A stretch of 64,000 nucleotides of DNA, taken from positions 12,462,001-12,526,000 of the forward strand of contig OX344753.2 of the NCBI GenBank assembly GCA_947034885.2. The letters run 5' to 3'. The position numbers were made by a program, and so were the translations under genes. Shown here piece by piece: positions 489 through 48,509 of the stretch. This DNA is from Thuidium tamariscinum. Lineage: Eukaryota > Streptophyta > Bryopsida > Hypnales > Thuidiaceae. Within the stretch, counting starts at the first letter, position 1. Each line of letters starts with the position of its first letter. The notes beneath the pieces were generated by a model. It saw only the letters and a list, made by a program, of their open reading frames with translations. It had not been told where the DNA came from and made no database searches.

Positions 489-1143
489 CCCCTAAATGCT
501 CTAATCACCAAAATCTAGTGTTTTGAAAATATTGAAGTTAAATAAAACCTAACAAAGTTGCTATTTTTAATAGTTTATATTTTTGAAAACTTTTTTTTGA
601 AGTCTAATTTTAGCATTAGAAATCTGATTTTGAAAATGATTGATTATAATGTTTTTAATCCAAGATTTTGTGCAAGGATATCCTTTGCAATCTCGACTTT
701 CCATATTATTGAAGGGCTCTTGGAAATGAGCCTCAAATACACTAGATATTGGAGAAAAAAGCACATTAGGGATTCATTTGAAAAAATTGTAGAGAAGATT
801 TTGAGAAGCGACAAATTGATTAGGGGTTATGCATGTTAAGCCCTTTAACCTCATATTTTTTTGGTGACCAACTTTTTAGATTTGACATGTCAAAAGAAAA
901 TTGAAAGACTTCAATTCACGGTTTTGTAGTTTTAACACCGTTGTGATTAAACATTATAATATTTCAATCCATAAGTATTATTGTTGAGTTTCCTTTTCCT
1001 AATTGATTCCTAAATATTATGTCCAATTTGAATTTGTAAGGGTACATTTATAAAAGATTGATAGAGCTTATCAAAATGTTGACTTTTAGTTCACCTTAGA
1101 ACAAATTCTTAGAAGCTCAAAAAAGGCCTTGGGCATTTAGGGG
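489..1143. mobile_element. TTAA-flanked MITE, family A copy 1
   Basis: A 655-bp non-coding element bounded on both sides by TTAA (485-488 and 1144-1147). Its left end reads CCCCTAAATGCTC and its right end GGGCATTTAGGGG, a terminal inverted repeat of about 13 bases. The same sequence recurs over its whole length at 15763-16415, which fixes both boundaries. Short open frames inside are in repeat DNA and have no protein character. TTAA target duplication with CCC-type ends is the known signature of piggyBac and Kolobok transposons. No transposase is present, so this is a non-autonomous copy. Superfamily assignment is an inference. Confidence 0.75.
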
Positions 1144-1147
1144 TTAA

Positions 1148-2817
1148 GCATAAATTATAAGTGTCTCCAAAGTCATGAACTTGAGCACTTGAGTTTCAAC
1201 AAAATTGTAGAAGACAATAATTGTACATTTATATGGAGTAATTTTGAGAATGTGATGCATTCATCATTGCTTGGATGGAGGTTCAACTCTATTTTTGTAA
1301 AAGAAAAATTGAAGAAATAAAAAATGCTCACTTTACGAAGGGAGAGGGTTTTAGTGAGGATTAACAAGGATTATGTTGGAGGGTTTATGGAGGAATAATG
1401 GTTGTTTGTTATAAAGAGGTTCAATATTATATTCCACCCATCTTGATTATGATTATAATTTAGTTCAACATATAATTATTGATTACAAAAATCACAAACT
1501 ACTAAATTTTTGAAATTTGTTGTACATAAACAACAATTGGGACAATAGTTGAAGACCATTGCTTATAAAGCAAGAGCATTGCAAAATCATTTGTGTAAGA
1601 AAAATATTTGTATCTTCATAGTGCAAAAATGTGTGGCTATAATATTATATTCATGATCTCTATTCGAATCATTGTAAATATTCACATTTGAAGTAAAATA
1701 GATATTTCTACTTTGATAGTATTATATTATTTAACTCTTATTTGTTTGCAAACTTTTATATGATTAAGATGAAAATGTTTTTTAAGAAATTCTAAACATT
1801 GATTTGTCATGTATATTGAATCTTGGAAATTTCATCAACAAAGTTAAAGGCTTTCATTAAGTCTACAAATGTAATGCATTGAATTAAGTTTCTTTTGAAA
1901 TAAAGAATCAATCTGCCTAAAAATTTCACAATAATTAGGTTTGTAAATGAAATCATCAAAATGCCCTCATTGAAGACATTCATCACTAAGAAAAATTCAA
2001 AAACATTTTGGTCAATGTTTGGTCAATGTTTAGTCAAAATAAGTTGATTCCTTTTTGAAGTGTGATTTTAGTAAAATCAAACTATTGGGATACTTTTAAT
2101 AACAATTCTAAGAAATTTGACACTTCATCATAATATTTTGGTTTTGGATATTCTATTTTCAATATAAAATATAATTTATAATTTATTTTTTTGAATTTAG
2201 AAAAAACTATCTCATACAAATTGGAAACTTTGATCATTTTGTTTATAATTGAATTAATTGTATTGCATAAAATGTAAAGGAACGTTTTTGAATCAATTGA
2301 AAAAAGGTTTTTCCCAAAACCCTTGTATCTTTGTAAATTTTGATTATTTGCAAAACCTAAAATTACACAAATATTACTACTACAACTAGCCAAATGAATA
2401 TGAAAGTTGGCTACAAAGCTTTAATGTAATTTTACAAAGAAATACTCATTTTTATAGTTATAATGTGCATTTAAATGGAAGTCAAGTGCACCTTCTTAGT
2501 ATCAATGGTGTTTATAAAATTTCTTTCAAAATAACTAAAATCCTTTAGGGTTTTGAATAATTGAATTTGATGATGGTTTTCATAAAGTAATTTACATAAG
2601 ATAGATTATTGGAAGAATTTAATCAATTTCATTTATTATTATTTTTAATTGCAAAGAAAATATAGAATGAAATAAATATTACTTCAAAATAGTTCTATGT
2701 TTTAGGATTTAAATGGAATAGTAAATTATTATAGAATTATTATAGAATTATGTAATTTTTTTAATGTGTTTTAAATTATAAATTAATTTTGATATTGATT
2801 TTGTGTGCATTTTGCAG
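1148..2817. other. AT-rich intergenic DNA, no gene seen
   Basis: Very AT-rich sequence with only short stop-rich frames. The last few hundred bases probably hold the promoter and leader of the gene starting at 2867. A TTTTGCAG at 2810-2817 looks like a splice acceptor, so a leader intron is likely. I see no other feature. Confidence 0.5.
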
Positions 2818-2877
2818 ATGATTAATGTTTCAATTAATATGGTACTAGGATTTTCAAGAACCAAAGATGGAGGCTGA
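2818..2877 (+). promoter_or_regulatory. Upstream ORF overlapping the TRP start codon
   Basis: A 19-codon frame opens at ATG 2818, just after a likely leader-intron acceptor, has a second in-frame ATG at 2839 and stops at TGA 2875-2877, past the main ATG at 2867 in another frame. An overlapping uORF of this kind would lower translation of the main frame if the ATG lies in the mRNA. The second ATG begins MVLGFSR, faintly like the MVL start of other plant TRP proteins, so a different first-exon structure is possible. Confidence 0.35.
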
Positions 2878-8300: not shown

Positions 8301-11300
8301 ACGTGTTGCTTATATGACACAATAAGGATATAATTATAGAGGTTCAATAAATTCATAGATTGTCACAATCAATTGCCAATGCTTATTAAATAGAGGCTTT
8401 AAGTTGAATTGAAATTTTATTGCATATGATATGCAAGACATTAAGCATTAGGAAAATACATTCTTGTGTTGATGAAAGGATATTCAAATTTTGGTGATTA
8501 TAGATTGTTTAATCCATCTGTACATTGATCTAAGTTTATCTTTTTGAATTTATCTCTCAAAATAGCACAATGTTCAAAAATAGATCAATTTCTAATGTTA
8601 ATAGTTTTTATTATTTAGAAATATTCAAAAGATTTTCAAACTCTCTAATAAAGATGATGTGTCATCTAAAGATTCTATAAAATATAAAATATACATTATA
8701 TTGGATATTAGTGACTTGCCCAATGCCAAGCTAAATTTTGATTTATTTGATTTTTAGTGCCATAAGAAATTAATGTCCAACAATGGTGAGGGATTTCTAG
8801 TTTTCAAAATCTATAAATTGTATAATCTTTGGAAATGCCTATGACTTAGTTAAATACAAATTTAGGATAAATTTTTTTTTGAATAACTCATTTTCTGCTT
8901 TGTCTATTTCTTTTGTTGCCTTATTATTAGCGTAGAAGAGTAGAAAAAAGAAATAATTCCATTTAACTCTTTGATGTTTCAAAACTTTTGTGTAGATGGA
9001 AAATATATTGCAATTCATATTGCAATTTTTCAAATTTAGGCACAATCAAATGTTGTTTGCTTTTCCAATGATAATCATGAATTTTTTTTCATTGTCATAC
9101 CATTTTGAGCACTTAATATTTATTATCATTGCAATAAAAAAAGCATACTAGAACTTTTGATGATGCAACATAGGAACTTGGAAATAGTAGGTCTCAAAAG
9201 TTCTTCTACTATGACATTGGATTTGCAATTAAATTTTGGAATCATTATTCTTATTGATTGAAGTTATATTACAAAATTTTAATTGATTATTATCATATCT
9301 TTTTTATATATGTTGTTTTGTTTAAAATCACTAAAGGTATATCTATGATGTTTTATTCCATTGTCCACTACAATGAAAGTTGTTCTATGACCTAAGCATA
9401 ATTGATATGATTTTTAATGTCTTTTTAAATTAAAAGAATTTCAATGGAATGTTATTTTGGATTTTTATAACTTTTAAGTAATCCATTTCTTTGATATTCT
9501 AAATTTTATAAAGACATATTGGTGGAATTTAGACTTTTTGACAAAGATTTTCTTAAATACAAATTTGTGGTTTGAAAGTTTTCAACTAAGCAAATGAAAG
9601 TGTCTGAAAAAAATTAAGTTTTTTTTATAGTGATGCTTGCATGAAGTAGATAATATAGATCAAACTATACAAATTTCAATCATCAAAGCTTTCAAAATGA
9701 AATTCATGCTTAAATATGTAGTCTAGAAAACATTGTATCATTACTCCTCTTAGCTATCATCTATAGAGAACCATACAATATGCATAATGTCATGAAAAAC
9801 TTGTAATAGTTTCATTCATTGCTTGGATGGTCACAAGTCACCTTTCCATCTATTTTTCATCTATGCTTTAGAGTTAAAAGATGAAGTTTGTTGCAAAGAT
9901 TGACTTTGCGAATTTTGCAATTGAATTTAGTCTTCTACATGTATGAAAAATACAATAATAAACAAGTAAGAAAATATACTTGTTTATAACCTCACTCTCT
10001 ACCTTCATTATAATAAATGGGGACTTAATGATTGTCAAAATCCTTATTAATATTGGTCTCACACTCTCACCTTCCTATTTGTTTTTCATTGTGTTCCTCA
10101 TAACAGTTTCTTTCAACATATTGAAGGATTGAAAGTCATTTTGTGGGGTTCCTATAACTTTCAAAATATAAAATTCTGTGGATTTAGTAAGTGCTTCAAT
10201 GCTTCTATACTATTGATGCTTGGATAACAAAATTAAAGAAACATTTTGTAGGTAATAGGACAAGTTCAATTGCAATAATGTTGAAATTTCATAAATAAAA
10301 AACATCAAGTTGAGAATGTATGTATTCTAATGTTTTTGGTTGATTGTAAGAATCAATTTTTGAGATTTTTGGTTGTATTCAAAAGAAGTATTGGAAATAC
10401 TAAAACTCTTGATAATTTATTAAAAATTAAATTTAATATGTGTGAATTAAACAAATATTATAACTAGTGCATTTTTAAAATCCTGGGGTAAAAGATTCTC
10501 TAGAAGTTTTAATGAAGTCAAAATAGTAAAAAAATTAAACAAATAAATAAAAAGTTCTCATTATTATATAAATACTTAACATGAGATTTATTAAAGAAAC
10601 AATGAAAAATGTTTTTAAAATCCCCACAAATACAAGTTCAAGAGGGTTTTTTTGTTTGCAAATATATAAAGGAGATGGTTGTTTACTTTTAGATATTTTC
10701 TATAGTATTTGTAAACCTATTATTAAAATCTATCTTCAAAAATTGTCCTCTATATTTTAAATTTTGGATATCTAAAATTTTGAAAACCATTAAAACTTTT
10801 TAAAAAGAAACAATTTTGCAAATTTTGTTTTTTACTTTTAACTAACAATTGAATTTTCAAGAGTCAAAATGAATTTAGTGTATTAGGAAAAGAATACATC
10901 CATTCTTCATCTTTTACTATTTTGGTTCAATGTCTTTACCCCTAAAGGATCAAATGTCTCTAAGGTGATTCTTGAAGGTTCATTCAAGTTCCTATCATCT
11001 CAAATTTGGTGTCATATTTTGAAACTTCTTTCAAAAATAAAAATAAAAATTAGATTTTTGTAAATATGATTTGTATTATACTTTGTAATTAGAAGTAAAA
11101 ATTATCCCACCTTTGGCTCAAAATAAGGTTTGTAGGACAATATTAAGAAAATAAGTATATTAAAAATAATTTTTTTAATTCTATTTTTCATAGGAAGTTA
11201 TTTCTATCTACTTTATTCATTCTATTTGGACTAGTAATGAAGAAGTTATGGGGAGCCTTGTTTTGGAGTCAATAAAAATATTTCCTTGAGAAAAATAACT

Positions 11301-14300
11301 TATAGGATTCATTCTTTAATCCAATTTTCACAATTTCCACCTTCAAAAATAATTCATATAGTTTATTTTGCTTGCTACAGTTGGTATTAGTAATTTTTAA
11401 TTCCATCTTCAAACTATTAATAATTTAGTTTTCCATTCAATTATATCCTTGCTTGTACTTAACAATTTTTTGAAGAATGAAAATGAAGTACATGTCTTAA
11501 AACTTTTTTTTACTAAACTCTCAATTAAATTTTTCAATATAAAATTTTATTGATTTAAAATCTATAGTATAAGATTATTAAGTTAAAAAGATTCAAAGTC
11601 AAAAAATCTAATCATATAAGGTGTAAGAAAAGAAAAGTTTTTTTTCACTTAAAACACAAATTTCTTGTAATTTAAAGATCAAAGTTCTAAAGTTTCTTCC
11701 ATACATTGTTATTTTAGTCTAGTATGGCTAAATATGCAAAGAAGACAAATTTTTAATTTTTGCACCTTCCAATGGATATGAAAGATTTCACATTGAAAGG
11801 GCATTAGAAGAGATTTGAAGGCAACAAAAGCCCATTTCAATGCAGCCTCCAATTTGTTCTTTGTGTTGTCCAAAAACTATAGATTCTTGTTGGCTGAATT
11901 TTTTGGATTTTTGAAAAATTAATTAATCAAATTTTTTTCAAAATTCTAAAAAGTCTCAAGAAACCTTAAATAGAATTAAAAAACAATTCAATTTAAAAAA
12001 TATTATATTGAATTTTTTTTGATGTAACACTCTTTCGGCCATGTCAAATTACTGTGTGTCATTTCATCACGTTCCCACAATTTGGGAATTTTAAAATAAC
12101 TCACAAGCTTCCAATGCCCTCAAATCCCTTCCATTGTCTTATTCTTTTAGAAATTAAGAGTTGGATGCTTGTTGCAATGACTGCCACTAATAGATGCATT
12201 GACTGTAATACATGGTTATAGTGCACCCAAAAAGAAAATTTAATTTCTGAAGGAAAATAATAAATTCCCCCCTTCGGACTCCCCTAGTTAAAAAAATTAA
12301 TTTATTAAATTAATCCCTTCCCCTCCCTTTCCCATATCTATATTCATATCTATATTCATATCCATATTTACTATTCACTATTCATACCATATCAAATATT
12401 TGTATTTGTATTTGGCACTATATTCATATTTTGTATTTATATAATATTTGTATATGTATTCTAAATTTGCACTTGGATGGCTCAAATTAAATCTCACAAA
12501 GATCAATGACTTGTGAGTTTTTGAGAAATCAATGGCATTTTGGAAGAGAAAGCATTTAAAAAAAAATCAATGGCATGTGATTTTTGAGGGAGGGGGGGGG
12601 GGGACAAATGGCAAACTAGGTGGTAAGTGCCACTTTTAAATGCATTGTGCATTGTAGAACAAGCTACATCATACTTTATGTATGACTTCCAAGTAGTACG
12701 TGATTTTCATAACAACCTTTGGAAGTTCAAGACTTCTCTTTCTCTCTTTTTATTTCATTTTAGATAAATCTTTGGATGCACAAATCCTAAAAATTTGATA
12801 TACTTTTAAAGTTAGGTACTATAATTTTGAGCTTATTTCTTGTAAATTCTAGCTAGAGTTTCAAGTTTTTTTACCTTCAAATTTGACATTGAAGAAAACA
12901 AATGCAACCAACAAAGGGAACAAATTTAGTAGTGATTGCCATGCTAGTGTCAATGAAATTAAAGAAGCTAAAATTAGGGTGCTCTAAGAGCATCTTTGCT
13001 CTCAAGCAACCACTAATACAAAAAGTACATTTTGCTTTCTTCAATGTCCCAATATTGTACATTTTAGAGAGGATTACTTTTAGTGACCATGGCATTTTAT
13101 TTCAACTTGAAGTTCAAGGATTTGTACCTTATTCTACAAAGTTCTAAAAAACATGAAACAAGTTGGATTAGATGCCAATCCATTTTTCTTCCTTTCTAAT
13201 TTTACTAAAAACCATTTCAATGATTTTTTTTTCTTTGAAATGCAATTAGCTCTTAAAAGGTCACTTTAAGAGCAGCCTACCTTTCATATGCGACTATAGC
13301 AATAATACATCCGCTTGCAAATCTCAACACCCTTACAACCACCAATTTGTTTTAGGTCAATGATAGTCTATGAGCCATTGTACACACAAAGGAATTGAAA
13401 TTCCATTTCTCATTTCTATCAAATATTGTGAGCGGTTTAGCTAATCTATTCCATTAAACCATGAAAATATTAGAGGATCAATTCTATATTATCTAAGGTA
13501 TATGAAGATACCTAAGGAATAGGTTTTAATATGTTATGAATTTATTCATGAAAATTTGTGAAAAATCATAATGGTTAGGACTACCATAGTTTCCTATCTT
13601 CTAGTAGCTTACTTAGAAAGTAAATAATTAAAAGGGTGCCTGAATTTTTGTAAATTATTAATCTAAATTATCCAAATAAAATAAAAATAAAAATAAAAAT
13701 TTGTATATAAAGATTGCCTACTTTTAAGAAAATAAACTTTCCCCATACAAGGTTGCATCTTTTTTCTATCAATAAATGTAAATATACATTGCAAAGTCTT
13801 CTACTTTAATGTCAAGATCATTTTAAAGCACAATCTCTTACCAAAAAAAACCCTCTTATCTCCTTTGTTCCACTAAAAAATTCCAAAATAAGGCAGAATT
13901 TTTGTCCCACTAAAAAGCTCCAATTTTTTATTATTTTGGACCATTGAGAAAGTATTTGCTTTGTTGAATGACCTTGTGAGGGTACTTAAAAAAATCTAGG
14001 AGCATTTTTATGGCTTAGCAAGCTTGGCCTTGCCCATATGAGGCACCTTGTATTAATTGTTTTTTTCAAACAATAGTGTTAATGATGCATTTAGTGATGA
14101 CTTTGGTGCTATGAAAATTTGTTCATAAAGTAGGCCATGTTTTGTTATTGTGGATATTTAGGTAGAGGGACATATTTCAAGAATCTCATTGTTGCCATTA
14201 GCCTTTAAATCATCTAATTAAATTGACAAAATGGCAACATTCACAAATTATATTTAAATATCATACTTTCTACATGGATTTTCAATGCCTAAATGATTGC

Positions 14301-14684: not shown

Positions 14685-15762
14685 TTTGATGTATTATTTT
14701 TTAGAATACCTAACTATATTTTTCACTTTTAATTAATTTTTAGTACATAAGGCTGTCCAAGCTACTAAAAAGCTATAGTACTTATTATTTGTAGTAGGTA
14801 CCAAGCAAACCACATATACCAACAAAAGACTTGACGAGTAAGTGTATCAATAGGAAATAGGACATGTACTCAAAATTTAACAAACAAAAATATTTCACCT
14901 TGGAATTTCACCAATTGTCTATTGAAGCAGAAAAATATATCAATTGGAATTCTTTTGACAATTTATATGTTACACCAAAATTCAATAAGACTAGGAGATT
15001 AATCAACTTGAAAATGAATCCATTTGCTTGGCACTGAAAAAGAGGTGCTTTTAGGTTGTGATGAATTCTTTCTTCAAGCTATCATTTCCCAACAATTCGT
15101 CTTTACTCTCAACTCTAAAAAAATGCTATAAGACATTTCATCCTTTTAAAAAGATCAATTCAACTAATAAAGTAAATGCAAAACCAATCACGATTCTAAT
15201 TGAATGTGAAGAGGGAGAAGAGTATATACATGATCACTCTAAGGTCTACTTCTTAATGGGTGCATCAAAGGTATAATTCACCATCTAAGTCCATGATGCA
15301 CAAATAGTTGAGCCATTTGCCAACAACTTAGATACTTTATTCACACTAGTTTTTTTAGATTAGAGTTATCCTCTTTCAAACCACTTTGATGGTAAGAGTT
15401 ACAAAATTGTATGGAAAGAACAACCACAACATATGTGATTTGATTATGTCAAAAATACTCACAAGTGAAATTAGGCCAAGTACCTTTACATGTATCAACC
15501 TCGCAAATAGTAGAAAATAATTACCAATTTAATTTAGTTCTTTGACATATATTCTAACTATATTCCAACCACGAGATTCTTCTTTTGTTGATAAAAGCTA
15601 GTTGACTTCTATATCTTTAAGACTTGAAGTAGTAAGATTCTCCATTAGAAGCTTCTTAGATCTTAATTAATGTTTTGCTAATAAGAAGAGAATAAAAATT
15701 TATTTCTAAATTATTTTTGATTTATTAGATTTTTCAAATACTAATATAAATCCTCTTTTTCA

Positions 15763-16415
15763 CCCCTAAATGCTTGAGGCACCAAAATTTGGTGTTTGGA
15801 AAATTTTGAAGTTAAATAAAACTTAATCAAGTTGATATTTTTAGTAGTTTATATTTTTGAAGAATTTTCTTCAAAGTCTATTTCAAGCATCATAAAACCA
15901 ATTTAAAAAATGATTGACTATGATTTTTTAATTCAAGATTTTGTGCAAGGGTAGGTACCATTGCAATCTTGACTTTCTCTAATGTTAAAGGCTCTTAGAG
16001 ATATGCTTCAAATACACTAGATCTTGGAGAAAAAATCACACCCTAAACTCATTTGAAAAAATTGTAGAGTAGATCGAATTTGAGAAGCCGTAAATTGATT
16101 GGGGTTATGTATGTTAAGCCCTTTCACCTCATATTTTTTTCGTGACCAATTTTTAAAATTTGACTTGTGAAAAGAGGATTAAAAGACTTCACATTAATTT
16201 TGCAATTTTGACACCTTCATAATCAAACATTATAATCTTTCACTCCATAAGTGATATTGTGGTGTTTTCCTTTCCTGAGTGATCTCTAACATGCTTAGAT
16301 TGAATTTGTATAGTTACATTTTAAAAAATTTGATAAAACTCATCATAAAGTTGACTTTTTCTTCACTTTAGAGCAAATTTCTGGAAGCTCAAAAAAGACC
16401 TTGGGCATTTAGGAA
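15763..16415. mobile_element. TTAA-flanked MITE, family A copy 2
   Basis: A 653-bp copy of the element at 489-1143, in the same orientation and alignable end to end. The left end is CCCCTAAATGCTTGAGGC. The right end is GGGCATTTAGGAA followed by TTAA at 16416-16419. The left flank is TTCA instead of TTAA, and the right tip has two changed bases, so this copy is older or more decayed. Comparing the two copies extends the inverted repeat to about 18 bases (CCCCTAAATGCYYRAGGC). No coding capacity. Confidence 0.75.
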
Positions 16416-16419
16416 TTAA

Positions 16420-28639: not shown

Positions 28640-30030
28640 GAAAATAGAATTTTGAAAATGTCAAAGGATTGTAGTAACCAGGGCCTTTTTTTTGGGCTTT
28701 TTGGTGCCAGTTTGCACCAGAAAAAATAATCTGGGTAAAAAACACCCCAAAGAATTCTGAAAAACTTGGATTAAATCGCTAGACAACTTTGAAATAAAGA
28801 AAAATATTAGATGAATTCGCCTAATTTTGGATGAAAATCACACTACACATCCAAGAAATGGATGAATGTTGCAATTTGGAGCATTTGTATAACATTTTAT
28901 GTCGCCATTGTGGCTATTCTCCAAAAATGAAAAAGAACACCCTGGTAGTAACTATTTTGAAATGCAAAAAGTTAAAGTGGTCATTCAAAGTCTAGTGTCT
29001 TCCCGTAGCCATGAAAAAATTATCTCTATTTTGTTGTTGTTTGGTGTGTTGTGTTTTTCAACCATCCCCACTAATTTGGGGCCTCTAAATTCAAATTGGA
29101 ATTCTAAATTTTCAAAATTTTGTCACAGGGGCAAACAAAAAATTCCAATATATTTTCCAAGGGTAAAACCACAAACTTCAAATGACCACTTTAACATCTT
29201 GCCTTTAAAACAAATACGAGTCAATGGGATTTGGTGCAAATATGATAAGGCACAATAATTCAAAAGATGGTGGGTCATGTGAATTTACAATTCTCTATAA
29301 CATTATCAACTCCTAAAGTTCTTTCTTGTTTAGAAGCCTTAACTACTTCAAAATACTTGTCTCCAAAGTAGGGCTAAAATCTTTAATTATATTTATTTTT
29401 TAATAAATCAAACTTAGGATCCTTTAGCTAACTTAGTAGAGTATACTTTAAAACTTTAGAATAAGAAACCTTATCAATTGCAAGATTACGAAGTTTGGAT
29501 TTCCAAATTAAAAGATGTATTTTCAATTCTTTCCAAATGGTTAAATTTCATCTTTCAAATTCTTGAATCCAAAAATTTGTAGATCCTAAAACTTGACTAT
29601 ATGACAAAGAAATCACTTGGTTAAACATATAAAAATATTTCAACTAAAATTATTTCATATTCATGCTTGGAAAAAATAGTAAGTGGCATAAGAGGATTTC
29701 TAACTGTTTTAGAAGATTGCAAGTTTCCAAATGTTAGGGACACTGCCACATTAGTACACTGACGTGGTTGGGCAACTACCACATCAAATAATATTAATTA
29801 ATTAATTAAATTAATTATTAAATATTTCTTTAAAATAGTTTTTAAAATCATTTTTTTCTTTTAAATACATTCTGAATTTTTGGAGAAAAAAATTCAATTT
29901 TTTTTTGGAAATTTGAAAATTCAGACCAGCAAGGATTGATCTATAGTAATAGGAATAGTTTCAAGGAATGGCCCTAAAATAGTCTTTTGGAGGCCCAAAG
30001 CTCCTCTTATGAAAGAAGTAAAGAATAGTT
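28640..30030. other. AT-rich intergenic DNA, no gene seen
   Basis: Composition drops back to AT-rich after the SLP2 promoter. The 119-codon frame at 28899-29258 is low-complexity and matches no family I know. Toward 30 kb the sequence becomes part of a family A element. Confidence 0.4.
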
Positions 30031-30245
30031 GAAATGCTATCTTGTTTCAAAATTTAGTTAAGTGAAATTGAAAAATGCCAATTCCAATGGTTGTAATTTT
30101 TTCTAATAAACAATCCACATTCTATGAATTTTTTTTCAAAAATATTGAAAATTGAGTTAAATAATAGACTTCAAAGTTTATTCTAGAAAGTTGGTTTCTT
30201 ATAGTCAATATACCATTGTGATGTAGTTGTACATCACTAAAGACA

Positions 30246-30880
30246 AATGGCAAACCCAAACATCTCTACCATCTGTCTTAGTTGTCAAGATGGCCTCAAG
30301 GAGACCATTCTACACCATTTCCACCATCATATGAAGATGTGACATGCTTGGCACTTTGCTCTTTTGGTACTCGATCTACATAGCCTTAAAGATTCTACCT
30401 ACTAATAATCAATGGCCAAATCTCATATGGTAGCAATGCATAATGGGTTCAAAGCTTCTGCGGAGACTCAAGAGAGGCTCCTCCATGTGGTCATTCTTCT
30501 AAGGTTCAATTATTTGGATTTCTTGGCTTGACAGGAACACTATATGCTTTAATGCCTTCGATTGGCCGCCTTACAAGATTGAGAAACTACTTTAGGAAGT
30601 CTTCATAGATATGCTCGCACTACCTAGTTGAAAACCAACAAGCTGTGCAAGCTCTACCCCGACAAAGTTGCCACATTTCTCAGGCGATTTGATAACACAT
30701 GCTTACAATCATGATTATTTGGCAAAAGGCATCACCTTTCAATCTCATGGAAGCTTGTCCAACCCAAGTTGGGTAGTTTTGACAGAGTGGCCTCTAATTT
30801 TTGGTCTTCTCATAGATTGCTAGATTTGCAATTATACTAGTTGTAAAACTAAATTAAAAACCAACCAAAAAAACTTTAAA
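30246..30880 (+). mobile_element. LINE (non-LTR retrotransposon) 3' end relic
   Basis: On the plus strand, fragments in more than one frame resemble the C-terminal tail of plant LINE reverse transcriptases: a C-x2-C...H zinc-ribbon-like start (SCQDGLKETILHHF) and then a WPPYKIEKLL segment, as in tails of the form WPP..E.LLW. The frames are interrupted by several stops, so the copy is dead. The enclosing 14-base target duplication (30174-30187 and 31952-31965) fits insertion by a LINE, and the 3' part TTGGTTCAATATATT looks like a LINE 3' region. It is 5'-truncated. Confidence 0.5.
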
Positions 30881-30942
30881 AAAATACTCTGTTCGAGGCC
30901 TAGAGCCTTGTGCCCTTGGTTCAATATATTGGTTCCTATATC

Positions 30943-31912
30943 GGGGGTGCTATTTTGTGAGCCTGCGAGCGTGAGCCTATGAGCCTTTGAGCCTGTGAGC
31001 CTAAAATTTTTGGTGAAATTTTTAGTGATTTTTAGGGCATGGACCTATTACCGTGCTTTAAGAATTTTGAATTTTTATATCTAGTACCCCCTCATGGGAT
31101 TTGAAATTTGTAACTTTCAAAAAAAATTTTTAAAATTTTTTTTTAAAAAACTTTTTTTTTTAAAAATTTTTAAAAAATTTTTTTTCAATTTTTTTTTCAA
31201 TCTTCTTTTTATTTTTCAAATTTTTTTTGCAACTCCATCACCCTCCAAAATCCCACTTGATATTGAAAGGGGTTTGGAGGTAGAGAGCTTTGGAGCTCTC
31301 AAAACTTTTTTTTTCAATTTTTTCCAACTTTTTTTTCTTTTTTTCTGACTATGTTACTAGTTCATTTTTTTTGCGACTTTTCACCCTTGAAAACCTTCTC
31401 TTGGTACCGAGAGATCATTTTCAGGGTGATAAAGTCGGAAAAAAAAAAAAAAAAAAAAAAAACTTAAAAAAAAAAAAAAAAATTCTTTTTTTTGCACGAC
31501 TCCATCACCCTAGAAAACCTTCTCTCGGTACCAAGAGATCAATTTCAGGGTGATAAAGTCGGAAAAAAAAAAAAAAAAAATCTTTTTTTTGCACGACTCC
31601 ATCACCCTAGAAAACCTTCTCTCGGTACCGAGAGATCAATTTCAGGGTGATAAAGTCGGAAAAAAAAAAAAAAAAAAATCTTTTTTTTGCATGACTCCAT
31701 CACCCTAGAAAACCTTCTCTCGGTACCGAGAGATCAATTTCAGGGTGATAAAGTCGGAAAAAAAAAAAAAAACTTTTTTTTTTTAAATGACTTCACTTTT
31801 TTTTTCTCTTGGCTTAAAAAGTTCATAGTTTTTTTTGGTTGATTCTCTGGGCTCACAAAACCTACGCTCACAGCTCGCAAGCTCATGCTTTTAGGCTCAC
31901 AAACTAGTGTCG
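30943..31912. mobile_element. Unclassified insert with GTGAGCCT end repeats
   Basis: A roughly 970-bp block bounded by the 14-base direct repeat TTGGTTCCTATATC (30929-30942 and 31913-31926). Just inside the left end, TGAGCCT and close variants recur five times (30957-31002). The right end holds inverted counterparts (GGGCTCAC, CGCTCACAGCTCGC, TTAGGCTCAC, 31848-31900). Between them lie long T and A runs and the hairpin array. No open frame. It lies inside the LINE relic, so it came later. I do not recognise the family. Confidence 0.55.
31362..31770. repeat. Tandem array of hairpin units with poly-T/poly-A arms
   Basis: Four units of about 97-121 bases. Each reads T-run, GCACGACTCCATCACCCT, about 10 bases, the 16-base palindrome CTCTCGGTACCGAGAG, about 10 bases, AGGGTGATAAAGTCGG, A-run. 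Stems are complementary in each unit (CATCACCCT with AGGGTGATA; T-run with A-run). Unit starts are near 31373, 31494, 31591 and 31689. A degenerate fifth unit may start near 31231. Units 1 and 2 each have one change on opposite sides of the palindrome. Confidence 0.85.
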
Positions 31913-32790
31913 TTGGTTCCTATATCAATGGAATTTGTCTTTTTTTTTTAAAAGTTTATTCTGGAGTAGAGATTCAATAACTACCTACAAACTAAAATTC
32001 TTCATAACTTGCACCTCATTAATTAAAATGAAATGATTCAAGTCTTTCTACATACACATGAATTTTAAAAACCAATTAAAAGTTTTATTTCTTAAAAAAC
32101 CGATTTTTTCTAAATTGATTGTGTTGCTCATAAGTCATAACAATCTAAAAGAAACTATATATTACACAATAATTTTTTAACCATGTACTAAAAAGTAAGT
32201 TATCAAAATCGTGTACCTTAAAGCTCCTCCTTGACCACTTATTGTGTAAAAATTTTAAAAAATTAAAAAAAAATGTTTGTAAACGGATGACCAAAAATGC
32301 TATGTTGCTAAAAAATGCTACTTGGTCTTTTTAGGGATTAACCAATATTGTGGGGTCCTTTTACTCCCCTAGAAAGCAAGAGCCTATAGCATTTAAACTT
32401 TCCAACTAGCCAATGATTCTTTACAAATAAAAGTAAATTCAATCCTAATATATAGGTACGAACTATCCAATCTCCAAGGTGGAATGGTTAGTAGGTTGGT
32501 TAACAATGTCATATGTTATAGAGTGAAGAAATGTTCAATTTTAGTTTCAAGAGATATTTTATCTTTAGTGTCTTTGAATAGCATTGAAATCATCCTTCAT
32601 AGTAATTGTACAAAAGTGTATAATTTCACTCGGGGACATGATGATTTTAGAAAGGTAGTATGACATGTCAATGGCTAAGAAGAAAATAATAATCCTAAAA
32701 AGCTGGAGGAACATATCATTGTTACACAAAGCCAAGGGGAGGCTCTTTTACATTTGCTAAAATGAGAGGCCCTAGCAAAGTGAAGGTTAA

Positions 32791-33734
32791 CCCCTAAAGG
32801 TTTTTTACTATGTTTTCACCAAAAATGCTCCAAAATTGCCATTTCTAATACAAGTGCAATTTTTTTTTTAAAAACATATTTTTAACTCATAAAACCATAG
32901 GATCTTGTAGTAAGGTGGTTTGTAAACATGTGGAAAAAATTTCAGAAATTTCCATCGTGTAGATTGCAAGATATAAGCATTTGAATTGACAAAAATTGTT
33001 TTTTTAAACATGCAAAAATCCGGGCAGCTGCACTTCATAAGGTCACATTTGTGTGAAAAAAATTCAAAATGGTGGTTATTCTTTGAATTCATACTTCAAT
33101 GCAAGTTGTCTACATTCTCAAAAAATTTCAAACCATTTAAAATTGTACAACATATAGGAAAAAATAAGTAAGTAGAAAGAAGTAAGAAATGAGCCAAAAT
33201 ACTAAATTGTGAACATTTTATTCATGGAATTGAAAATTTTCAATCCCAATGGTTAAAATGTTGTAATAAACAATCTACACCTTCTGTTTTTACTTTTTTC
33301 CAAAAATATGAAAAATTGAATTAAATGAAGAATTTCAAACTTTTTTTGTACTGAGAGATTCTGTAACTAGTCGTAAACTACCCCAAACTCAAAATCTTCA
33401 TAACTTTTGACTCATTGATTGGAATGGATTGATTCAAAGCTTCACATGTCTGTATAAATCTAAAGAACCAATTTGAAATTTCACTTTTAAAAAAAAAGTT
33501 TTTTTGAAGAAGTTTTTTCAGCTGCCCGGGCTGCCCACCGAGTAAAGAAAACAACATATCCTGCCATAACTTTTTAACCGTGAAGTCAAAAGTTATGAAA
33601 ATTGTTGGGCCTTAAAGCTACTCCTTGGGCACACATTGAATCAAAATTTCAAAGAAAAAAAATAAAAACTCCATCCGTAGTGAGCTGCCCAAAAAAAATT
33701 TAATCTCAAAAAGCAATGTTCAGGGCTTTAGGGG
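32791..33734. mobile_element. TTAA-flanked element, family A long subtype, intact ends
   Basis: A 944-bp element with TTAA at 32787-32790 and 33735-33738. Its ends are CCCCTAAAGG and GGGCTTTAGGGG. The interior is AT-rich and non-coding apart from chance frames. Its inside differs from the 655-bp copies, but parts of it recur at 30040-32337, 35874-36240 and 44674-46200, so it represents a second subtype of the same family. Confidence 0.75.
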
Positions 33735-33738
33735 TTAA

Positions 33739-34355: not shown

Positions 34356-35076
34356 GGGTGATTGCAAGAAACACCTGCTGATTTTGTTGCATTTGGCTGA
34401 TTTTTTTGGGAGGACTTCAAAATTAAAAAATCAATTTAAAAAAATTTAAAAAATATGAATAGTGTATATACCTCTAAGATGAAGGTTTTCACCGAAGGAA
34501 ATGGATAGAAAAATTCTCTAAGTAGGAGAACTTGAAAAGTGCCAAACCTCCAGAAAATACATACTTTCATATTTTAATTAGGGAAAAATAGTAAAAATAG
34601 ATATTTAAAAAAAATAAAAAGTGGAAATTTGCAACAACTTTATGGAGATGGTCATTCACCAAGAAACCTACCAGAATAATATTTTGTATGTTTCAAAATA
34701 CAAGTAGAAGGGAGCTCACTTTGTAGACCTCCGCACCTCACAAAATCAACTTTTTTAAGAAATCCTTCCCTGGAGAGCTAGAAGTCTACTATAAGACCAT
34801 CTCATCCAAATTTCATGTTAAAATCATTAAAAAAAGGTATAGCCTAGTACTAAAAAACCCTAAACTATTAAGTGTGACATCCAATCGAGGTCTATTTTTG
34901 GATAGTAAAATATTTTTGAAAATTATGAAAAAATTATGTGAGGCTTATGATAGTTATGAGTACTTTTCCTACAAATCTTGAGTCAATCGGAGCTAAAACA
35001 CAAAAGTTATGGCCAAAAAACAAATCAGAATGCAACGAGTGATACAAAATAGGACAAGTGTTTCTTGCAATCATCC
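34356..35076. mobile_element. Family C terminal-inverted-repeat element, copy 1
   Basis: A 721-bp non-coding element. Left end GGGTGATTGCAAGAAACACC; right end GTGTTTCTTGCAATCATCC, an inverted repeat of about 20 bases. ACTA flanks both sides (34352-34355 and 35077-35080), a likely 4-base target duplication. The same element recurs at 45171-45913 and, reversed and partial, from 47153. It does not resemble family A. No transposase. Confidence 0.7.
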
Positions 35077-35873
35077 ACTAATCCTGTAAGGATGCAAAGA
35101 ACAAAAATTGTTATGTTCTCTCCTATGTCATTAAATGACATAACCATTGTTTCATGGGAGTTAAAATTGATGGAAGTTAAGTGTTGGGAATAATGGAAGA
35201 ATAGAAACTCCCTGACTAGAGTTCTAAGCTTTCATTGCAAGTGCATGGCATGTGCAATGTTAGGAGATTGTGACCTTGATGTTACTAGGAACTAATGCTA
35301 TAAAAATAATTTAGGTGAATTTAAGCTAGGTAGTAAGTGTTGCTTAAGAGTATGACATTCTAACTAAACAATAGTTCTTTAATTTATACTCAAAGATATG
35401 TATTCATATTGTCTATCCACATGGAAAGAGCCTATACTAAGAGAATGCCAAAAATTAGAAAGGTTTGGTGTTCCATGAAAATATACATGTATTAAAGAAA
35501 TTGAAGCATGTTGATTTCATCCTTCTAAAGATTGAGCTTATTAAGTCTTTAATAGAATTATAACACATGACTTCAAAAATAGTTGCATTCTAAAATGTCT
35601 CTAAAACTCCTTAATTAAGAGAAGAATTTTTTCATTTCGGCTCACAATAATGACGGGAACTCAAAACTATAACATCTTCAAATCAAGGCCATAAAAATTA
35701 ACTTTTCCAATTCAAAAAATTGCTCGTCAAAAAATGACTAGAGTAAATATAGAAATAAAAAAGTCTTAGAAAATATTTATATTTAGAATTCAAAAATTTT
35801 AATATGAAGAACAAAAACTCTTGTGTTGTTTAAAACTATTCAATCTCTATTTAATTTTAGAAAGATATTTTAA

Positions 35874-36240
35874 CCCCTAAAGGACTGAGCCTTGTTTTCT
35901 GCCAAAAAGCATTGAAAACTATCATTTTCATAGCAAAGAGTAAAAAAACATTTAAATTGTCTTTTTTTCACATCTAACCATAGGATCTTACACCTTACTA
36001 GTATAAAAAAGTGTGGAAATTTAAAAAAAAATTTGACCCCTCAGATTGCAAGATATTTGTGTTTAAAGTGGAAAAAACAAGTTTTTCACCACATTGTGGG
36101 ACTGAATTTTTTGACTTTGAACAATTTTGACTTAAAAAATTTTGCACTATAGAGTTTTGAGCTTTAAATCTTTATAGTGCAGAATTGATTTGAGAATCTA
36201 AACAGAAAAAAGAATTTCAAAATATTTAATTTTCATACTT
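35874..36240. mobile_element. Family A long subtype, left-end fragment
   Basis: TTAA (35870-35873) then CCCCTAAAGGACTGAGCC begins a stretch matching the left part of the element at 32791 (shared ACCATAGGATCTT, AGATTGCAAGATAT). I did not find a right end, so the copy is truncated or its end has decayed. Confidence 0.5.
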
Positions 36241-36244
36241 AAAG

Positions 36245-37200
36245 AAATTGTTAAGTAAAAGTAGGTACAAGATAGAAGGAAAATCTAAAACATTAATATC
36301 TTTTAGATGGAATTAAAATGCACTAATTCCAATGGTCAGATTATTCTAGAAATCACCAATAATGCAATAATTATCTTGAAAATGCATTAAATTTTTGAAG
36401 AAGCTAACACATTAAAAAGTATTTATGAGTTTTAAAGGGTAATGGAATTGAAGTTAAGTACATCATTACTTCCTTCAAGCATTGTTTTTCTTATGTTACT
36501 TTCTTTCTACTATGTAAAAATCATTGCAAGTAGAAATCTACATTCCTACTATAAAAAATTAACAATCATCCAACTATCATCATAAAAATGCTTATTTGAC
36601 ATATTGTTAAAGTTTTGACATCACTATGTTGTTGTCATTTAATATAAAATCACTTGCAATCCAAACAAATGTGTTTTATACAACCTTTACAAACTAATGT
36701 TTTGGATTTACAAAGATTGCAATAAAAAAAATTGTTTTGGTTGCTAAATACAAATAATAATGTTTTTGTATTAATTATGTATTATAACAAATATTGTCAA
36801 AACTATTTAAAACACATGCAACAACAACTCAAATTGCAACCTATAGATCTTCTATGATTGTAATGGACATCTTAAGTCTTTGATTCATTAGAAATCTTCA
36901 ATTTCCATTCAAATTCAAATTATCTACATTTTTTGCTATATATATATAATTTTTTTGACTCATATGTATGTCAACTTTTTAAAATACCAATGGAGGTGGG
37001 TCTTAAATGGTGTATTATAACATGCAAAAAAATATTCAAGTCAGCAAGGCTAAAAAAAAAAGCTTATGCAATTTTTGGAGTGAGTTATAAATCCGGCCTC
37101 AAAAAGTGAGTCTATAGGGTGGTTAGCTTTGGAATTCATTTACTTCCAAACCGTAATTTCTTTTTGCTTTGAATTTTTTGTGGATTGTAGTACACAAAGG
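36245..37200. other. AT-rich intergenic DNA, no gene seen
   Basis: No gene-like frame. A segment near 37120-37270 shares loose similarity with 48190-48320 next to a family A right end, so part of it may be transposon-derived. Confidence 0.35.
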
Positions 37201-37204
37201 ATAC

Positions 37205-37730: not shown

Positions 37731-37733
37731 CTC

Positions 37734-37749: not shown

Positions 37750-38561
37750 AAATACTCAGATTTCTGTTATCTCAAGAAACCGGCACTGCTACAATCTCTA
37801 GGAGCCATCTCAGCCAAGGAAAAAAAACATTCTTCAACGGCAGTGTGGAAACTCGTGGTTTCAGTGTGGAAAATAGGAGCATGGCAAATTAGAGAGTTTT
37901 TTCACACGTCGTATTCTTGTCTACTGATTTTCAATAATGAAAAGATTACTGATTATGCCTGAACCAGAATCCGTGAAGACTTGTGCTGGATCATGCGGTT
38001 TTGGAAAAAGTTTTCGAGTGTCATTTCCTGTTCATTCGTACAATCGTACTATCCAAAATCGTCATTTCACCAATCACCATACGGTGGAAACACCCAAAAC
38101 CGCCCAAATAAAGAATTCAGCATAGTTGGAGGCAGATTTTTCTAAAAATAATATTTTTTCTAGTATTACGGAGTAAAAATCATGAATATTTCAATTAGAA
38201 AAAAAGATTTTTTAAATGTCGTATGTATTTTCTATGATTTTTCAAAGTATAGGCTCCATGGACCACTGGAACTGTTCAATAGATGCCCTTAAATCTAAAC
38301 ACTACTAAAATCAACAGTGAGCCAATTAGATTTTGGTATGTGTTTTTAATATGTGTCAGTGAATTATGTTTTTGCAGTATTGGATGTTTCTCTCTTAGGT
38401 GCACGCTTCTACTTAGTGACATTTGTAGACTAATGGGAAAAACATCATATAGTGGGGCACTCTGTTATATCTTGCTCACACAAATGCACACATGTGCAAT
38501 ATTTTGTGAACTTGCTGACTTAGGTACATAGATCTAGTTGAAGTTATATATTAACCGTAAT

Positions 38562-38862: not shown

Positions 38863-39314
38863 TAATGTAAATAACAACTGTGGTAGGAGCTGATGTTTGT
38901 GGAAGGATTCGAGGTAGTTTTAAATAAGCTCAGAGTTTGGACGTCCATAGCAGGATTTGCAGCGACATGACTTTGATTAAATCTTCCATTTTTACTCCTG
39001 TTTTAGTACCAAGCAGACCCAATAAGACCTGTTGTGAGTTTCAGATCGAGTTTCAACTTCAACGTTCTTCACCGCTTCTGGTGATCTGAAATTTCATTGG
39101 TTCTATCTGCAAATTATTTGTCAGAATATAGTCACTGGATTGATCATTTTAAAACCATCAATCCTTGGTTCTTCCGCTGTACTGTAGACAGTAGACACGA
39201 GAAAACATTTTCGATTCTACATAATCCGAGTCACTGGAAAGCAAACCTTTGAGAAAGTTAGTTCAGGAACGTGATTTCCATTCATCAGCTGAATCATTAG
39301 TCTGTTACTTCTAG

Positions 39315-43305: not shown

Positions 43306-43350
43306 TTTGCTCCTTAAAGCTAAGACCAGGAATTCTCTATTGCTCTCAGC

Positions 43351-43362
43351 TATATATATATA
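43351..43362 (-). promoter_or_regulatory. TATA box of the aspartic protease gene
   Basis: Read on the minus strand, ATTATATATATATAGC sits about 110 bases upstream of the better start codon (43242) and 46 upstream of the first ATG (43305). If transcription starts about 30 bases downstream, the leader would be short and the ATG at 43305 would fall close to the cap, which favours 43242. Confidence 0.6.
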
Positions 43363-43905
43363 ATGACTGAGGATGAAGTTTCAGTGACGTACGCCTCCAC
43401 TTTGGCATTGCTGATGAATTGCTGCAATTGATCATCCCCGCGCAGCTGACTTGCTGTTCTGCAAATATGGTAAGGACGCGTCGATCGACAACAATCGGTA
43501 AGTCTAGATTCCATCATTCATCGCACAGATAGAACAGGAGTCGAAGTTTCCCTGAATACTTCTCCTGACCATTGGCAGTTGAAGTACCGCACGAACCAGC
43601 TGACAGAGTCAGAATTCTTATCTAGGTGTTCGATCTGCAACTTCTTTGGACTGGGGGCAACAAGTAATTGAAAGTCTGAAACGTCCGTTTCGTAAAGTTG
43701 GTGGTATTTCATGGCTTAAACTGCACGTTTCAGGAGACTCTGCCCTCAACACAAACCCTTAATTACTCTGTCCTCGTTCTTGGATTGCATTAACTAGACC
43801 CTGTGAAACTGTTGCATGCATGCAGGGGCTGCATGTCACTATTTCTGACGCCAGATTTACCGATGCCAAATTTAAGAAATTTGCGGTTATGATCGAGCAA
43901 AGTCC

Positions 43906-44252
43906 ACATTAGAGAAAATCTGGACTCTACAGAGGGTCACTAAGAAGTGCCGGAAGGGACCCTTAGATAACATTTATTTTTGCTTGACAGTGATTTTTCT
44001 TCTATAGTTATTCCTTGTCAGAGCTTTGAGTGGATCAGAGGAGGGCCAGTAAGTACCCTCTTTTGACAAATTGGGAATTAAAAAAAGGAGAAAAACTAAT
44101 AGATGCTTACAATATTTACACAAACTGAAATGCATCTTTCTTAGGGATCGATTCTACCTTTTTCCTAGCTTCATAAGACTCTTTGTATACTCATATAGAG
44201 TGGCTCATCAAAACTTGGCAGCCGTCTAGAGAGTCCAAATTTTCTCTAATGT
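43906..44252. mobile_element. 347-bp MITE
   Basis: ACATTAGAGAAAATCTGGAC at the left faces GTCCAAATTTTCTCTAATGT at the right, an inverted repeat of 20 bases (one mismatch) continuing imperfectly through TCTACAGA/TCTAGAGA. The interior is non-coding. No clear target duplication (left flank GTCC, right flank TATA), so exact ends and class are uncertain. Confidence 0.65.
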
Positions 44253-44669
44253 TATATAAGGGAAAAATACACAATATCACACTTGTCCCTTGCGTTGAAC
44301 TCAAGACTCTCATTTAATTGCATCTGTAGACTTTAATGAATGTGTTCACCAAATGCTTGATTGTAATTTGTTGATGCATTTAAATGACATATACCAAAAT
44401 CTGATTGGCTCACTATTGATTTTAGCAAGGTTTGGATTTGGGTGTACCTACATGATAGTTTCAATGGTCTAGGGAGCCAACACGTTAAAAAATCATAAAA
44501 ATTATACAAGACATTTGAATTTATTTTTTGAATATTCATAATTTTCACTCATTAATACTAAAAAAATATTTTTTTAGAAAAAGTTACCTCCAACCATGCT
44601 GAATTCCTTATTTGGACAATTTTGGATGTTTCCATTATAGTAGAGTCTTGAATTGAATCTTATTATTAC
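44253..44669. other. AT-rich spacer, no gene seen
   Basis: Spacer between the MITE ending at 44252 and the next TTAA element. Nothing recognisable. Confidence 0.4.
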
Positions 44670-44673
44670 TTAA

Positions 44674-46200
44674 CCCCTTAAATTCCTTAAATCCTTAACT
44701 ATGTTTACTCCAAAAACAGTCAAAAATTGTCATTTTCTTAATACCATTACCAATTTTTTTCTTAAAATATTTTTTGACATTTGCAACCGTAGGATCTTGA
44801 GTTAATTGGTTTGTGAACATGTACAAAAAAATTCAAAGTTTTTCACCATGTAGATTGCAAGGTATTTGTGTTTGAATGTTCAAAAATATTTTTTTTCACC
44901 CTATGGAAGATAGAGTAGTTGCTCTTCAAAAGGCAAAAATCATATGAAAAATGGTCCAAAATGGTTGTGCCTCTTAGGATTCTTTGTTGAAGCCAAGTAG
45001 GGTACTTGCCTAAAAAATTTCATTTTGCTTAGAATTGTACAATATATAGGAAAAAACAATAAGTAAAAAGAAATAGCAAATGATTCAAAATACAAAATTG
45101 TTAAAAATTTATCTATGAAATTAAAAAATGTCAATCCCAATAGTTGCAATGTTGTAATAAACTATTTTTAGGGTCATTGCAAGAAAAACCTACCAAAATG
45201 CGTAGCGTTTTGTACAATATTCATTTTTTTCTTTGGAAATACTATATAATTAGTAAATCAATATTTTTTAAAAGTAAGAAATATGTTTGATGCATATAAC
45301 TTTAAAGAGAAGGTACCTTAGGTAGGAAAAGCATAGAAAAAATCTCTAAGTAGGAGAACTAGAAAAATACACAATTTCATGAAAATTATAACTTTCACTA
45401 TAATTTCACATTTTAATTTGTAAAAAATAAGGAAAGTAATTTAAGTTAAATTAAAAATTTTCCATTTGGGAAGACTTTATGGTGAAGATATTTCACCAAA
45501 ATAATGGTATGAAAACCATCTTAATTGTTCAAAAATGCATGCGCAAGGGAGGCCTATTAGCACACATGTAGAGGAAAGAGAATAATGATTTTTAAAATTT
45601 TCTTCGATAGAAACATGCCTACCTAGTGTATGAATAGACTCCAGAAATCTTATCTCTAAATCATTAATTTTAAATACTCTGCAGTACTAAAAAATACGAA
45701 ATCATAAAGTGTGACAAATTAGCTAAATTTAAATTTAAATATAAAATAATTTTTTAAATTTTTTGAAAAATAAGGGTTTTGATTACTATCAAGTTATCCA
45801 TTTCTAATAAAAATTTCAAGTTCAAGAAATTAATGCTTCAAAGTTATAGCACATGACAACTCCATCACTCAAAGTGTGACACCAAATAATATAAGTCTTT
45901 CTTGCATTCACCCTTCATCCTATGACTTTTTTTTGAGAAATATTGAAAATTGAGTAATATAAAGGACTTCAAAGTTTATTTTAGAGAAAAAATCCATAGT
46001 TGCTTGCAAACAAAAGAAACTCATAACTTTGAGTCATTGATCAAAATGAAGTAATTCAAAGCTTTCCAAGCATATATAAATAAAGAAAAATATTTTCAAA
46101 TTATTATTTTAAAAAAGTGATTTTTTTCAATTTTCGTGAAGTGCCCAATTACAAAACAAAGTAATATATTAGGTCATAACTTTTGACTAGTATTTTCAAA
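44674..46200. mobile_element. Family A long subtype, carries a nested family C element
   Basis: Begins TTAA (44670-44673), CCCCTTAAATTCC. It aligns with 32791-33734 through GTAGGATCTTG, ACATGTACAAAAAAATTC and CAATCCCAATAGTTGCAATG, is interrupted by a family C element at 45171-45913, and resumes (GAAAATTGAGT, TCATAACTTTTGACT) to about 46200, where similarity ends without a clear right tip. Confidence 0.6.
45171..45913. mobile_element. Family C element, copy 2, nested in family A
   Basis: 743 bp. Ends GGGTCATTGCAAGAAAAACC and GTCTTTCTTGCATTCACCC match copy 1 (34356) with several changes. Flanks are TTTA (left) and TTCA (right), one mismatch from a 4-base duplication. It splits a family A copy, so family C moved after that copy was in place. 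Confidence 0.65.
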
Positions 46201-46953
46201 TGTCTTGATATGAGAGAAAATTCTAGCCCACGTGTGGGCTTCATGGATGCACGAGAATGTGCAATTACAACAAAAATCAACCCAAATTGGCAATCAGAGA
46301 CTCTATAAGGTAAGCAATTAGTTCGTATGCCCCATTAGATTTCCAATTAAATAAATATTTTTTTAAATCAAATTGTTTAAAAAATTTTTTTTAAACATTT
46401 AAAAAAAAATTCTTATAATTGTTCATTCATTGAAACCAAAACAACCCTCCATAGGGTCCAAATTTTCTATAATGATTTTTAGTAGACATTAAAAATATTC
46501 CTCCCCATATTTTATTAAAATTTGGGCCCAAAATATGTATTTTATCATGCATGATAAAATTTACAAATTCTAAATTCTTATTTGCAATCAAAGGCCCCCT
46601 ATTTGTTTGAAAAGGTACTCGAGGTAAATTACTCAGGCTCAAAATATTGGAGCTTTTATTTTTACTTATACCCCTAGAATAACTTCTTGTGGCCGAGTGA
46701 GGGCCAGTTCACCTTGACCCTTGTCATCATGCCTAATTTCCTCATGTCCCACCTCATTCTACTATGATTTAGCTTAGCCCTAAGTTTCCAAATCACGTTT
46801 TTGAGCACTCTTCACCTCTCTTTCATTTGCATGTTGTCTCCATATTGTCTTATTCATAGTGATGAATAATTTTTTTGCATCAAAGAATTTGACTTATAAT
46901 TCCATTTCAAATGCAATGAGCAAAAATCTCTTCTAAATTCAAAACAATATGTT
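46201..46953. other. AT-rich spacer with a 22-base palindrome
   Basis: No gene. ATTTTATCATGCATGATAAAAT at 46539-46560 is a perfect palindrome (shown in two halves around TGCA). In DNA this AT-rich that could be chance. Confidence 0.4.
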
Positions 46954-46957
46954 TTAA

Positions 46958-48509
46958 CCTTTAAAGGACCAAGGCCACTTTTATTTCAAAAACCTCTCAA
47001 AACTGCCATTTTTGCTGCATTCATACAAAAAAACAAAAAATATATTTTTTTAAGAAATCTAACAATAGGATCTTGTATTTTATTTAACTCATATCATGTG
47101 GTCAAAATTTCATGAATTTTGACAAGATAGATTGAAAGATATGGGTGATTACAAGAAACACTTGTACTATTTGTTGCGTTTTGTCACACCTTAGTTTCTG
47201 ATTTGTTTTTTGTTTGTGTTTTAGCTCTAAATGATTCAAAATTTATAAAAAAAAAGCTACTCATAACCATTATATACTCTTTCTAACCCTTGAGGATTTT
47301 TCAAAAATAATTACTCTTTTTAAATAGCCCCTAAAACTTCTCACAATGGATGATTTAGGGATATTTAGCACCATTTGAACCAAAAAAAATGAATTTTAAG
47401 CTAGAATTTGGAGAAAATGGTCTCTTAGTAGACTTATAACTAGTACCAGAAGGAATTTTAAAAATACTTATTTTTATGTGATATAGAAGTTCACAAATAA
47501 GCTTCTTTCTACATTTTTTTTCAAAGGTATAAAACATTATTTTGGTGAGTTTTTAGGTCAAATTTTATCACCAAAAAGTCTTCTCATACGGGCAATTTTT
47601 AGGTTTCTTTTTCGAAAAAAACTATTTCTTACAAATTAAAATGTCAGAAATTGTATTTTCTTCATTAGAATTTTGGACATAGAATTAACAATCTCAACAA
47701 TTTTTTGATGATACTAACAATGATGATGGATTTTTTTGGAATTTATTGGATGAATTATATGCACCATGAACTCTAGTTTTTGAACACAAAAGTTGAATTT
47801 TAAAATGCATTATACAATTGTAAAACAGAAATTGTATACATTACCAAATTCAACAAATCTTTTAAATACAAAGGCATTTAGATATAATAATGGTCTATTT
47901 TGCAACCTATACTCTTTTTACAATGGCTAATGCAATCCCATACTCTTAGTTCCAAAAAGAAACCTCAAATTTTGTGAGAACCAACATCATTTGCATGTTT
48001 GTTAAATTGTTAATATTTTTAATTCTATGAATTTGAATTTCCTTCAATTTTTGTATACAACAATCAAAAATGATGTATACCAACACACTAAGGCACAAAA
48101 AGATTTTATGGAGTTTTAAGAAAAAATTGACAAAAGATAAAGTAAAGCCTAACCATGTTGAACAAACCAAGTTTTTGACATAGCAAACTTTGGAATTAAT
48201 TTTCTTTTAAATCACAACTAACTTTTTCTTCAAACTTCCATGGTAATGTATCATATGCTGTACTCTACAACTTTTATGTAAACACTTTTGAATTTTATCC
48301 ATTGATGCTAATAATATGGTTGTTTGAATGAAAATGTTTCACAAAAGTACAAAAGTACTCAATTTCATTAGTCACTGTACACTTAGAGTAATTTGAATTT
48401 GTATAATTGTATCTCAAAAATAATTGAAAAAGCTTGTCAAAATGTTGGCTTTTTGTTCAATTTAGAGCAAATTCCTAGAAGCTCAGAAAAAACCTTGAAC
48501 ATTTAGGGG
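46958..48509. mobile_element. TTAA-flanked family A element, longest form
   Basis: TTAA at 46954-46957 and 48510-48513 bound about 1.55 kb. The left end CCTTTAAAGGACCAAGG matches the long subtype. The right end (AACATTTAGGGG, with GCAAATTCCTAGAAGCTCAGA just inside) matches the 655-bp subtype, so this copy links the two. A reversed family C fragment begins at 47153 (GGGTGATTACAAGAAACACT) and accounts for part of the extra length; its far end was not found. No open frame for a transposase. Confidence 0.5.

Follow-up and report, generated by a model that had tools for sequence, protein, structure and literature searches.

The window considered here, i.e., the whole 64-kb stretch of Thuidium tamariscinum DNA that was analysed (with no N), contains two families of transposable elements, designated A and B, whose inverted ends begin CCCCTAAA(K)G and lie directly in TTAA. 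They belong to a known kind, the non-autonomous TTAA-flanked DNA transposon (MITE-like), and hold no surprise of principle. The explanation that we favour, to which we give a probability of about two in three, is that both families are old and long MITE-like elements that were moved in trans, most likely by a piggyBac-type transposase. All inferences draw on that single window and on the published literature. The copies placed in the window are the following:

A1: 485..1147, forward strand, two-ended copy of family A (489-1143, 655 bp), TTAA on both sides
A2: 15759..16419, forward strand, two-ended copy of family A (15763-16415), 79.6% identical to A1
A3: 48386..48513, forward strand, the right-end 124 bp of family A (48386-48509), TTAA on the right; A model E 1.2e-21
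B1: 32787..33738, forward strand, the only two-ended copy of family B (32791-33734, 944 bp), TTAA on both sides
B2: 44670..46214, forward strand, left end and interior of family B; B1-model matches at 44693-45167 (E 9e-49) and 45910-46214 (E 4.5e-11)
B3: 30011..32341, forward strand, interior (30011-30181, E 8.8e-8) and right end (homology 31966-32296, E 1.2e-13) of family B
B4: 35870..36351, forward strand, left half of family B, homology 35874-36351 (E 2.2e-7), TTAA on the left
B5: 46954..47147, forward strand, left end only of family B, homology 46973-47147 (E 3.5e-4), TTAA on the left; a C-type repeat follows
B6 (tentative): 10939..11790, reverse strand, inverted and degenerate copy similar to B4 (homology at 11381-11790)

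The first-pass annotation had described a family of TTAA-set ends of the form CCCCTAAAKG...CMTTTAGGGG. Such ends do exceed chance, as the window has six exact occurrences of TTAACCCCTAAA, whereas 200 Markov simulations, built per 2-kb block in order to keep the local composition, averaged 0.01 and never gave more than one; the complete CCCCTAAAKG is present at seven of the 12 ends that could be placed. Matches that tolerate mismatches are much less telling: 23 to TTAACCCCTAAA with at most two mismatches, a modest excess over the 10.5 expected, and 11 to CCCCTAAAKG with at most one, against 5.6 expected and a number as high in 2 of 100 shuffles.

The 12 ends were placed by homology together with the motif and, since their count leans on ends found through the motif, the boundaries given by homology constitute the independent part of the evidence. 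The flanking tetramer is TTAA at ten ends, TTCA at one and TTTA at one, its outer T and inner A being present at all 12 (across the window, TTAA occurs at 0.9% of positions). CCCC opens nine of the ends and CCCCTAAA eight; base 1 is C in ten and T in two, base 2 is C in 11 and T in one, and base 4 is C in 11. The perfect terminal repeats measure 11 bp in A1 and 9 bp in B1, as well as 9 bp in A2, where they stand behind two changed bases (A2 has TTCA as its left flank, and TTCC instead of CCCC at its right end).

Regarding the boundaries, the alignment of A1 with A2 covers 484-1147 and 15758-16419 and its limits meet the ends; the match of the B1 model starts with model position 1 at 35874, the left end of B4, and that of the A model extends to the last model position (662) at 48509, the right end of A3. 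Outside the tetramer, the best of 66 pairs of 100-bp flanks scores 23, the 95% point of 1500 control pairs being 24; a shared flank of B4 and B5 was considered and rejected, its score of 23 lying inside the control range. In A1 and B1 the direct repeat, judged by eye, is no longer than TTAA. With homology stopping at the ends and unrelated DNA beyond the tetramer, the most plausible interpretation of TTAA is that of a target duplication and not of a part of the element. An empty site was looked for within the 64-kb window and none was found. The repeat lying upstream of B2 (44364-44634) ends 35 bp short of the TTAA of that copy; with 38085-38366 it forms an inverted pair of another repeat, 77-78% alike, and a further inverted pair occurs at 13026-13185 and 58959-59116 (70.6% alike).

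Family A is about 655 bp long. At 820-850, A1 carries a junction-like stretch (TTAGGGGTTATGCATGTTAAGCCCTTTAACC) that resembles two element ends placed back to back, and A2 has a partly changed counterpart at about 16095-16130; the family may have arisen when two elements fused, or the stretch may be due to chance. Long inverted halves, i.e., a foldback structure, were considered for the two-ended copies and rejected: A1 scores 64 (shuffle maximum 77), A2 scores 68 (maximum 81) and B1 scores 94 against a mean of 60.5 and a maximum of 107 in 200 mononucleotide shuffles. The last value is high, but it falls within the shuffle range and no foldback is therefore claimed.

The picture of family B, and with it the list of seven full or partial copies given by the first-pass annotation, had to be corrected in its details. 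Of the seven intervals, three prove to be copies of a single family with both ends; three others are B copies with one end, two of which are broken up by other insertions, and one is mixed. The interval 44674-46200 is the left-ended B2 with an insertion of about 740 bp of repeat C (~45171-45913), and no right end was found for it in the window. The interval 30040-32337 corresponds to B3, which has a right end at 32337, set in TTAA; its left end was sought in the window and not found, B homology being limited to the two segments listed above. A nested insertion at about 30188-31951 divides B3; it has a near-identical 14-bp direct repeat, AAGTTTATTCTAGA / AAGTTTATTCTGGA (13 of 14 letters alike), and a T-run at the right side. 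This insertion contains in turn another one, at 30943-31912, which has an exact 14-bp TTGGTTCCTATATC repeat on either side and within which tandem units recur at a spacing of 97-124 bp. The copy placed at 35874-36240 is the left-end fragment B4, whose homology runs on to 36351 and whose right end was not found in the window.

Nor was the list complete, as it missed the degenerate inverted copy B6. This sequence resembles B4 (69.7% over 435 columns; also 72.5%, E 6e-35), the B1 model alone giving only E 1.1. Its end-like CCCCTAAAGG motif, set in TTTA at 10939, stands 442 bp from the homologous stretch, which makes the copy tentative; for the intervening 10939-11380, which comprises the motif, no homology was shown, and the window yielded no opposite end. 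Repeat C, of about 720-740 bp and with inverted ends like GGGTGATTGCAAGAAA, has copies at 34356-35076 (ACTA on both sides), at ~45171-45913 and from 47143 on, the last two inside or beside B elements.

The mixed interval, 46958-48509, has a B left end (E 3.5e-4) and an A right end (1e-21) around a C-type fragment, and could represent either a single hybrid element or a pair of remnants. There are thus two families and a mixed case where three different interiors had been reported. The statement that the family fills the AT-rich DNA was too strong as well: A and B cover 5,238 bp, i.e., 8.2% of the window with 10939-11380 included and 7.5% without it, and the 500-bp bins under 33% GC total 31 kb.

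Beyond base 8, the subterminal signal common to A and B is weak. Control sets reach an equally high score in 21 of 400 cases when the five A ends are taken together, in 9 of 400 when the three right ends are used and in 210 of 400 with the two left ends; for individual ends the number lies between 16 and 674 of 1000 controls. The assignment of both families to one enzyme is consequently drawn mainly from the first ten bases and TTAA.

As the first-pass annotation had stated, no transposase is visible. The 63 open reading frames (at least 45 aa) overlapping the elements and their nested insertions yielded no transposase match, the four weak ones obtained from Pfam at E up to 0.1 (the best at 0.014) being single hits to unrelated families; 65 longer frames elsewhere in the window gave nine families, none of them a DNA transposase. 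In all, 129 of the 484 frames of at least 45 aa were scanned, a sample which a short or decayed transposase remnant could escape. The matched frames include TAXi_N/TAXi_C and Asp (aspartic protease), a telomere repeat-binding protein 1-like ubiquitin domain, DEAD, Helicase_C and SPB4-like helicase parts, ribosomal L28e, Metallophos and an RVT_2 reverse transcriptase, a gene content that points to a land plant. There is no Rfam match at gathering scores and no tRNA in the window. One 21-letter end pattern had no exact match in viral_contigs and genome_contigs; neither collection is of plants, so this count says nothing about them.

The comparison with known systems draws on excerpts of the cited papers. 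In one of them, piggyBac elements are said generally to combine TTAA duplications with a CC[C/T]T motif and terminal inverted repeats of 12-19 bp, and a coral MITE family with a CCCCTCAGTG start is assigned to this superfamily (PMC2872659). An animal survey reports many piggyBac elements with CCC as the first three bases, terminal repeats of 4-24 bp, some far longer, and the 5′ motifs CACTA, CCCTC, CCCTT and CCCAT (PMC10813416). In our set, CCC occupies bases 1-3 at nine of the 12 ends, and the perfect repeats of A1 and B1 fall inside the 4-24 bp range (PMC10813416) and outside that of 12-19 bp (PMC2872659). A single end of the 12 fits CC[C/T]T, and CCCC is absent from the four 5′ motifs in the excerpt of PMC10813416. 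The elements resemble autonomous piggyBac in the CCC start, the putative TTAA target and terminal repeats that are short, and differ from it in having C at base 4 and no transposase frame found (PMC7351741, PMC10813416); such a frame, not matched among those scanned, is expected to be missing if the elements are non-autonomous. With the coral CMITEs they have in common inverted CCC ends and TTAA flanks, CMITE family III starting CCCCTC, but those elements are about 100 bp long with interiors conserved across families, whereas A and B are plant elements of 655 and 944 bp with unlike interiors (PMC2872659). Judged from the TTAA and the CCC start, piggyBac is the best-fitting candidate. At the left end of A2, 15780-15794 is a perfect 15-bp palindrome (CACCAAAATTTGGTG, element bases 18-32) that is degenerate in A1. 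The C-terminal domain of the piggyBac transposase binds a palindromic repeat that occupies bases 17-33 at the left end of that element (PMC7351741).

Several other explanations have to be weighed against this one, and two of them concern the TTAA itself. We consider it very improbable that TTAA belongs to the terminal repeat as a fixed component, in elements moving without duplication: the few copies and the palindromic nature of TTAA make a duplication and a fixed sequence indistinguishable within the window, and the TTCA and TTTA flanks fit mutation under both views, but we know of no superfamily of this form. Quite improbable is also a Tc1/mariner-type origin with a TA duplication, according to which ACCCC...GGGGT would be the element itself and the outer T and A a mere target preference. 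Both readings yield the same letters, as TTAA contains TA; nevertheless, the constancy of outer T and inner A, at 12 of 12 ends in a sample of only 12, exceeds what we would expect from a preference, and the ends are unlike those of Stowaway. In favour of such an origin, Tc1/mariner is among the main plant MITE superfamilies (PMC12550479).

The remaining alternatives concern the enzyme. That A and B were moved by another TTAA-inserting superfamily, either Sola3-like or undescribed, is improbable in our view. The target of Sola3 is TTAA, the frames scanned include no transposase that would speak against it, and base 4 departs from the piggyBac motif. Against it stands the combination of a CCC start with TTAA, which is the published piggyBac pattern (PMC10813416, PMC2872659). 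The first-pass annotation had proposed piggyBac or Kolobok, and only the first half of this proposal is retained. Kolobok elements do duplicate TTAA, but their termini are 5′-RR and YY-3′ in the excerpt of PMC9587614, whereas here they are 5′-CC...GG-3′, with C or T at both base 1 and base 2; Kolobok does not fit, and was rejected on these terminal bases as having hardly any probability.

Under the favoured piggyBac-type reading, A and B would be cut-and-paste DNA transposons devoid of an own enzyme and mobilised in trans. A single transposase, presumably of piggyBac type, would have served both families, recognising the 5′-CCCCTAAAKG ends, inserting at TTAA and duplicating it. By analogy with piggyBac (PMC7351741), the element would be freed via hairpins that open to TTAA overhangs and then joined to a new TTAA, the old site being left in a seamlessly repairable state. 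The group looks old in sequence terms: A1 and A2 are about 0.19 substitutions per site apart, B1 and the left part of B2 0.29 per site, and the B copies hold later nested insertions, whereas the LTRs of a Copia-like element differ by 0.018 substitutions per site. The copies in the window are probably inactive. The Copia-like LTR retrotransposon, at 50699-57236, has 219-bp LTRs that are 98% alike and a long frame with two in-frame stops.

The first-pass annotation held that a family of this sort would be unusual in a land plant, a claim that can be kept only in a weaker form, given that PiggyBac has already been reported for land plants at annotation level. According to excerpts of the respective papers, a survey of 257 species reports PiggyBac as one of the superfamilies that occur in every taxonomic group it covered, land plants among them (PMC4438587), a review lists it among the MITE superfamilies of angiosperms (PMC10004981), and a fern genome paper tabulates 1,230 PiggyBac hits (PMC6890710); these reports are annotation-level tables and lists. 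In the excerpt of a MITE study of 207 genomes, piggyBac is not among the five main plant superfamilies (PMC12550479). Among the matches listed, no title concerns a land-plant piggyBac or a TTAA family with these ends, and the plant papers mentioning TTAA include those on peanut AhMITE1 (PMC9277781) and Allium (PMC6387171).

A bolder proposal, which we regard as unlikely, is that the plant has a TTAA-specific transposase lineage of its own, either piggyBac-type or new and characterised by the CCCCTAAA end, which would drive at least two long non-autonomous families and would be able to combine the left end of B with the right end of A, as in 46958-48509. A group of plant TTAA elements whose ends are firm merits a genome search, and the firmly bounded A and B give a direct probe for a plant TTAA transposase, namely their end pairs, with TTAACCCCTAAAKG facing its complement. 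Should no plant TTAA transposase exist, an extinct or horizontally acquired activity would be indicated.
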